64,000 nucleotides of DNA. Source: Natronomonas pharaonis DSM 2160. GTDB taxonomy: Archaea; Halobacteriota; Halobacteria; Halobacteriales; Haloarculaceae. The notes under the pieces were generated by a model. It did no database searches, was not told the origin of the DNA, and saw only the letters and a list, made by a program, of their open reading frames with translations. The position numbers and the translations under genes were made by a program. Every line of letters begins with the position of its first letter. Position 1 is the first letter of the stretch. Below, piece after piece: positions 8,363-8,543 of the stretch. The DNA lies in assembly GCF_000026045.1 (NCBI RefSeq), contig NC_007426.1, forward strand, positions 1,612,001 to 1,676,000, written 5' to 3'.

Positions 8363-8543
8363 TGGGGACGGAGGGATTTGAACCCCCGATCGACTGATAT
8401 CTCCGGTATGCGCCTCGGTCCTCCAGAGGGTCGTCAACGCGGAAGCGGTGATCAGCCGTCCGCTCGGTATATCAGTCTGGAGTCTCGTCACCGGGCGCGT
8501 GGCCTCTGGAGTCAGTCGCCATGCCTGGCTTGGCCACGTCCCC
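8363..8543 (-). tRNA. tRNA-Trp (anticodon CCA) with intron
   Basis: The minus strand gives a complete tRNA. The acceptor arms GGGGACG (8543-8537) and CGTCCCC (8370-8364) pair fully. The D stem is GCCA/TGGC, the anticodon stem ACTGA/TCAGT, the loop C-U-CCA-G-A, and the T arm GGGGG-TTCAAAT-CCCTC. The discriminator is A at 8363 and CCA is not encoded. The 5' exon is 8543-8506 (38 nt) and the 3' exon 8398-8363 (36 nt). A 107-nt intron sits between positions 37 and 38, the canonical archaeal site recognised by the splicing endonuclease as a bulge-helix-bulge. Haloarchaeal tRNA-Trp is known to carry such an intron. A TTTACGG element about 30 bases upstream (8570-8576) may be its promoter. Confidence 0.95.
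8399..8505 (-). ncRNA. tRNA-Trp intron acting as box C/D guide RNA
   Basis: Read on the minus strand, the intron holds box C GUGACGA (8491-8485), D' CCGA (8467-8464), C' UUGACGA (8437-8431) and D CCGA (8418-8415). The guide before D' (8477-8469) is the exact complement of the 3' splice region including A38 and U39. The base five positions upstream of D' pairs with U39. The guide before D (8429-8421) complements the anticodon loop, and the base five positions upstream of D pairs with C34. C34 and U39 are the two sites known to be 2'-O-methylated by this intron in Haloferax volcanii. Both box pairs differ from the consensus RUGAUGA/CUGA at the same two matching positions. Confidence 0.85.

Follow-up and report, generated by a model that had tools for sequence, protein, structure and literature searches.

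Paired U·U to C·C changes in the kink-turns of the haloarchaeal tRNA-Trp intron box C/D guide RNA

The intron of euryarchaeal tRNA-Trp genes belongs to an already known family of box C/D guide RNAs. In H. volcanii, C34 and U39 of tRNA-Trp are 2'-O-methylated by the guide machinery (PMC2584109), and the intron at the same place as that studied here is 103 nt long and occurs as a circle once excised (PMC7714728). Grosjean 2008 (PMC2584109) noted degenerate boxes in the halobacterial members as well as a longer D'-C' spacer, 19-21 in halobacteria compared with 4-10.

In k-turn numbering, 3b is the fourth base of UGAUGA and 3n the second base of CUGA, and box C/D k-turns have U:U at 3b:3n (PMC5689011). 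The published view is that these k-turns, with their strong preference for U:U, are under selection to remain unfolded before L7Ae binding. The U:U box C/D k-turn of A. fulgidus fails to fold in Mg2+ when L7Ae is absent (PMC5689011); where structures are known, U:U k-turns adopt N3 (PMC4914095). The Actinomyces-1 k-turn, which has C:C, folds in Mg2+, adopts N1 (PDB 7EAF) and also folds with A. fulgidus L7Ae as other k-turns do (PMC8191799). According to published folding rules, a k-turn with C at 3b folds well in metal ions unless 3n is G, Watson-Crick pairs fold poorly (PMC4382518, PMC8191799), and G:C at 4b:4n disfavours ion folding (PMC5689011).

We analysed a window of 64,000 nucleotides from Natronomonas pharaonis DSM 2160 (NC_007426.1, positions 1,612,001 to 1,676,000), in which an Rfam tRNA match running from 8543 to 8363 reveals a tRNA-Trp gene with anticodon CCA, whose anticodon arm carries a large insertion (Table 1). 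The minimum-energy fold predicts an archaeal BHB there, with a CUCC/GGAG helix and AGA and AUA bulges. Together with the known cleavage rule, this predicted BHB places the intron ends at 8505 and 8399; box C/D guide RNAs in tRNA-Trp introns have such BHB boundaries. Neither ARAGORN nor a whole-genome search with a tRNA model detects the gene, which with its long intron may therefore be absent from automatic annotation. Among haloarchaea the tRNA-Trp gene is present in all 97 sampled genomes (44 genera) and a loose intron pattern is matched in 370 of 391 genomes; given these numbers the intron boxes are not a chance occurrence. Two genomes contain two copies of the gene. At seven loci the intron is lengthened by lineage-specific insertions between the 5' splice site and box C, some of them hairpin-like.

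Table 1. Features of the tRNA-Trp gene and its intron, in window coordinates.
Feature	Position	Strand	Remarks
tRNA-Trp(CCA) gene with intron	8363-8543	-	Rfam RF00005, 46.2 bits, E 1.8e-8
Intron, 107 nt	8399-8505	-	Cut after G37 and before A38, as inferred from the BHB
Terminal stem, 5' strand, GCGCC	8494-8498	-	-1b = C8494; pairs with GGCGC 8414-8410
Box C, GUGACGA	8485-8491	-	3b = C8487
D' guide, GACUGAUAUA	8468-8477	-	Fifth base opposite U39; 9-bp complement AUAUCAGUC in 3' exon
Box D', CCGA	8464-8467	-	3n = C8466; co-varies with 8433
Apical stem-loop between D' and C' (C-helix of internal k-turn)	8438-8463	-	
Conserved apical loop, CUGAUCA	8449-8455	-	221 of 224 haloarchaeal introns
Box C', UUGACGA	8431-8437	-	3b = C8433
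D guide, CUCUGGAGGA	8419-8428	-	Fifth base opposite C34; 8-bp complement CUCCAGAG at the anticodon
Box D, CCGA	8415-8418	-	3n = C8417
Terminal stem, 3' strand, GGCGC	8410-8414	-	-1n = G8414; G in 196/196 distinct introns tallied

A preliminary description of this DNA had assigned boxes C, D', C' and D to 8415-8491, and our placement on the minus strand agrees with it exactly. The assignment is supported by applying the fifth-base rule to all C-like boxes (with up to one mismatch) and D-like C-N-GA boxes of the pre-tRNA: only the two CCGA boxes satisfied the rule for U39 (9 bp, AUAUCAGUC) and C34 (8 bp, CUCCAGAG). A placement with standard boxes was sought across every D-like C-N-GA site of the tRNA-Trp gene; no CUGA gives a guide to U39 or C34, and alternatives built on CUGA were rejected as having no tRNA target at the methylated positions. 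Both motifs depart from the canonical RUGAUGA and CUGA, reading UGACGA and CCGA, and the intron is filed as a box C/D guide by its position, guides and gene context, strict consensus not being the basis. Judged from sequence, it is probably the haloarchaeal form of the tRNA-Trp box C/D guide, directing 2'-O-methylation of C34 and U39.

The apical stem-loop contains covarying Watson-Crick pairs (8456-8448, 8461-8441, 8459-8445 and 8460-8442), and pair 8496-8412 of the terminal stem also co-varies. The pairs that close the apical loop vary among haloarchaeal introns (A-U, G-C, C-G and U-A). Within the loop UGAUCA is self-complementary, and CUGAUC is also complementary to GAUCAG at 37-42 of the spliced tRNA; the loop is a candidate kissing dimer or docking site. 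Its variants UUGAUCA and UUGAUCG keep GAUC, the exceptions being one locus with CUGGCCC and another with CUGGCUC. A separate observation concerns the first U of box C (position 8490), a loop U described as required for L7Ae binding: it is G in most haloarchaea, with GGGACGA in 132 of 196 distinct introns.

The preliminary description had also recognised that the facing U-U pair has become C-C in the C/D and C'/D' motifs. This is right and follows from the k-turn numbering: 3b·3n is C·C, where U·U is usual, in both the internal and the terminal k-turn of the window intron. The tandem G·A/A·G is provided by the sequence, G8489 and A8488 of box C facing A8415 and G8416 of box D, and the internal motif is arranged likewise. 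In these k-turns -1b:-1n is C:G and 4b:4n is G:C. The internal loop is GUU (3 nt), and the terminal loop is CGGU (4 nt) in this genus and CGG in most relatives. The sequences show the features of the ion-folding C:C class under the Lilley rules, namely C at 3b, a base other than G at 3n, and C:G at -1b:-1n; across relatives -1n is G without exception, both in the 196 terminal motifs and in the 110 internal motifs with C·C.

Introns were then tallied from haloarchaeal genomes and 120 named stretches, giving 218 distinct introns. The terminal 3b·3n pair is C·C in 213 of these, U·U in three and C·U in two. The internal pair is C·C in 120, U·U in 75, C·U in 10, C·A in seven, C·G in three, A·A in two and A·U in one, that is, 197 same-base and 21 mixed pairs. 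The mixed pairs are one-sided, as C at 3b accepts C, U, A and rarely G at 3n whereas U at 3b occurs only with U; 3b = U with 3n = C was never seen among the 218. In Natrialbaceae and most Haloarculaceae the terminal motif is C·C and the internal one U·U, the sampled Haloferax species have terminal C·C too, and the internal A·A pair is found in two distant families. Beyond the class, a pattern that demanded a UGAUGA C' box and left the second base of box D free retrieved eight introns, all with U·U in both motifs. The C·C contact is a trait of the haloarchaeal clade and is not special to the gene in the window.

The 197 same-base internal pairs exceed expectation (107 expected, and a maximum of 133 in 10,000 shuffles of the 3b/3n pairs, which do not preserve the relatedness of the introns). 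Covariation was scored as APC-corrected mutual information over 4,885 column pairs in an alignment of 161 distinct introns with an effective number of about 30. The internal 3n-3b pair (8466, 8433) ranked sixth, and of the five column pairs that scored higher, four belong to the stem of the apical hairpin. The terminal 3b-3n pair ranked only 44th because it hardly varies. On a tree of Nop5 and fibrillarin with 114 scored genomes, a dependent model of change was preferred over an independent one (LR 41, 4 df, p 3e-8). In an independent-pairs sign test all informative contrasts lay in the same direction and none in the opposite one, with supported pairs too few to reach 0.05. Furthermore, two introns from one genus, L470 (terminal U·U, internal C·C) and L471 (U·U in both), differ by a paired change in the internal motif alone. 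Since the two bases of each k-turn change together, the contact appears, on the balance of this comparative evidence, to be a real structural pair kept by selection.

The preliminary description had gone further and proposed four coordinated changes, co-evolved across both k-turns and to be checked in relatives as a joint C-C replacement. Co-evolution holds within each k-turn, as the covariation and the tree indicate, but does not extend across the two: the column pairs that link the two motifs come 4400th and 3981st among the 4885, and in the aligned relatives the motifs do not switch together. Four changes as one unit are ruled out by the lineages with one motif switched and by the absent cross-motif covariation. 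The alignments point instead to two independent two-base changes, the two k-turns switching independently of each other.

Altered L7Ae binding, raised earlier as a possible consequence, is not indicated. The L7Ae of this genome carries the NExxK RNA-contact motif as GTNETTK, as do the aligned relatives, including one with terminal U·U (18 rows were compared, one of them a wrong reading frame); the C:C k-turn of Actinomyces-1 is, moreover, compatible with an archaeal L7Ae, as noted above. The closest solved chains to this L7Ae are those of Haloarcula L7Ae in the 50S subunit. Nop5 and L7Ae genes were found in each of the 97 sampled genomes. An altered L7Ae was rejected as the explanation, its contact motif being unchanged. 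As L7Ae keeps GTNETTK irrespective of the motif, we suggest that the change is best placed in the intrinsic folding and conformation of the RNA, with the protein staying the same.

Given C:C at 3b:3n and C:G at -1b:-1n, the published rules predict ion-induced folding and the N1 form for the C·C motifs of haloarchaea, bearing in mind that these rules derive from low-salt buffers and that at molar KCl U·U might fold too. Counting against the prediction are G:C at 4b:4n and the 4-nt terminal loop CGGU, the rules having been built on 3-nt loops. The overall explanation that we consider the likeliest, and think somewhat more probable than its negation, is that these are guide k-turns with a paired U·U to C·C replacement, predicted to fold in ions as N1 and still to be bound by the conserved L7Ae. 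The ancestral motif would have been U:U, L7Ae-dependent and of N3 type, and its haloarchaeal descendant would fold in metal ions alone while remaining bound by the same protein. After the change of 3b to C, 3n would be free to drift to U or A within the same folding class, which fits the one-sided mixed pairs. Where the cytoplasm is very rich in K+, a k-turn that is already folded could help the guide RNP to assemble or shift the precursor towards the guide conformer, an advantage that we infer. We put forward only tentatively the wider proposal that Haloarchaea turned a protein-dependent N3 k-turn into a salt-folding N1 k-turn by repeated paired changes from U·U to C·C or A·A, as an adaptation to multi-molar K+ in which the guide pre-folds before L7Ae. 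Many lineages retain internal U·U, and hence ion folding of the internal motif is not required.

Neutral drift could also have produced C·C, if high-GC mutation pressure converted U to C at weakly constrained sites where C·C is tolerated and function is unchanged. C·C intron loci are slightly GC-richer than U·U loci (mean 0.638 compared with 0.616, p 0.0016), but the local GC ranges of the two overlap fully (0.52-0.72 for both); Haloquadratum, at 52% local GC, has C·C in both motifs, and Natrialbaceae keep internal U·U. Drift would be compatible with the mixed C·U and C·A states and with the dispensability of the H. volcanii tRNA-Trp intron (Joardar 2008, as quoted in PMC4090602). However, GC pressure leaves both the coupling and the double origin of A·A unexplained. 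GC pressure alone was rejected, as it does not account for the coupling; it may set the direction of change. Drift as the whole explanation is conceivable but rather unlikely.

A competing helix is a less probable alternative still, and one we doubt. Here CGG(U) before box C and (A)CCG of box D would extend the terminal stem in a splicing conformer, hiding the k-turn and thereby keeping the C of box D. The predicted minimum-energy fold does pair GCGCCCGGU with ACCG-A-GGCGC, and in the window a CGGU/ACCG helix hiding box D could form between 8493-8490 and 8419-8416. Columns 8493 and 8492 co-vary with 8419 (ranks 5 and 10): A precedes box D in 50 of 61 introns that have the 4-nt loop CGGU, and U does so in 78 of 79 that have the 3-nt loop CGG, an association that may partly reflect lineage. 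The introns with terminal U·U have GUU or GCU loops, which are incapable of the CGG/CCG helix. In contrast, C·C occurs next to a UCU loop in one family of three loci, and two further C·C loci read as GAC loops, the helix being impossible in all of them, and the internal motif has no competing helix yet shows the stronger covariation. The helix may be a real second state, with several lineages having C·C without it.

That the boxes are decayed remnants in an intron that no longer guides methylation is very improbable: Grosjean 2008 called halobacterial boxes 'more degenerated' (PMC2584109) and most introns have lost U1 of box C, but the two guides and the distances between boxes are conserved, H. 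volcanii has Cm34 and Um39 (PMC2584109) while sampled Haloferax share the terminal C·C, and Nop5 and L7Ae persist in every genome sampled.

Paired replacement at 3b·3n with retention of L7Ae, the reading we favour, would bear on whether protein dependence matters in k-turns. A whole archaeal class that breaks the U:U rule through paired changes amounts to a natural experiment on this question, which is approachable with short RNAs and a genetically tractable archaeon. The results also suggest that strict UGAUGA/CUGA searches may overlook real haloarchaeal C/D RNAs. To see whether C·C is used in other haloarchaeal C/D RNAs, a guide to C34 of tRNA-Met was sought with patterns from the tRNA-Met of this genome, which gave one lone candidate and otherwise scattered, unconserved matches; the candidate, L385:1501-1519 GACGACUUAUGAGUGCUGA, is a possible guide half with a motif of C·U type in one early-branching genome. 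In the literature surveyed, neither the paired exchange among U·U, C·C and A·A nor what it means for folding was found described.

Collectively, the window intron shares with the euryarchaeal tRNA-Trp intron guide (Pyrococcus sR50, H. volcanii) its host gene, the targets C34 and U39, the order C-D'-C'-D and the BHB context (PMC2584109, PMC7994747, PMC4090602). It differs in having UGACGA and CCGA in place of UGAUGA and CUGA, and a long stem-loop between D' and C' where the euryarchaeal guide has a short spacer. With the archaeal box C/D k-turn of A. fulgidus type it has in common the tandem G·A/A·G, G:C at 4b:4n and L7Ae as partner, but whereas that k-turn is U:U, protein-dependent and N3, the haloarchaeal one is C:C with C:G at -1b:-1n and is predicted to fold in ions as N1. 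The Actinomyces-1 k-turn (PDB 7EAF) has the same C:C at 3b:3n and C:G at -1b:-1n, although it belongs to an unrelated bacterial RNA and has C:G at 4b:4n, where the window intron has G:C.
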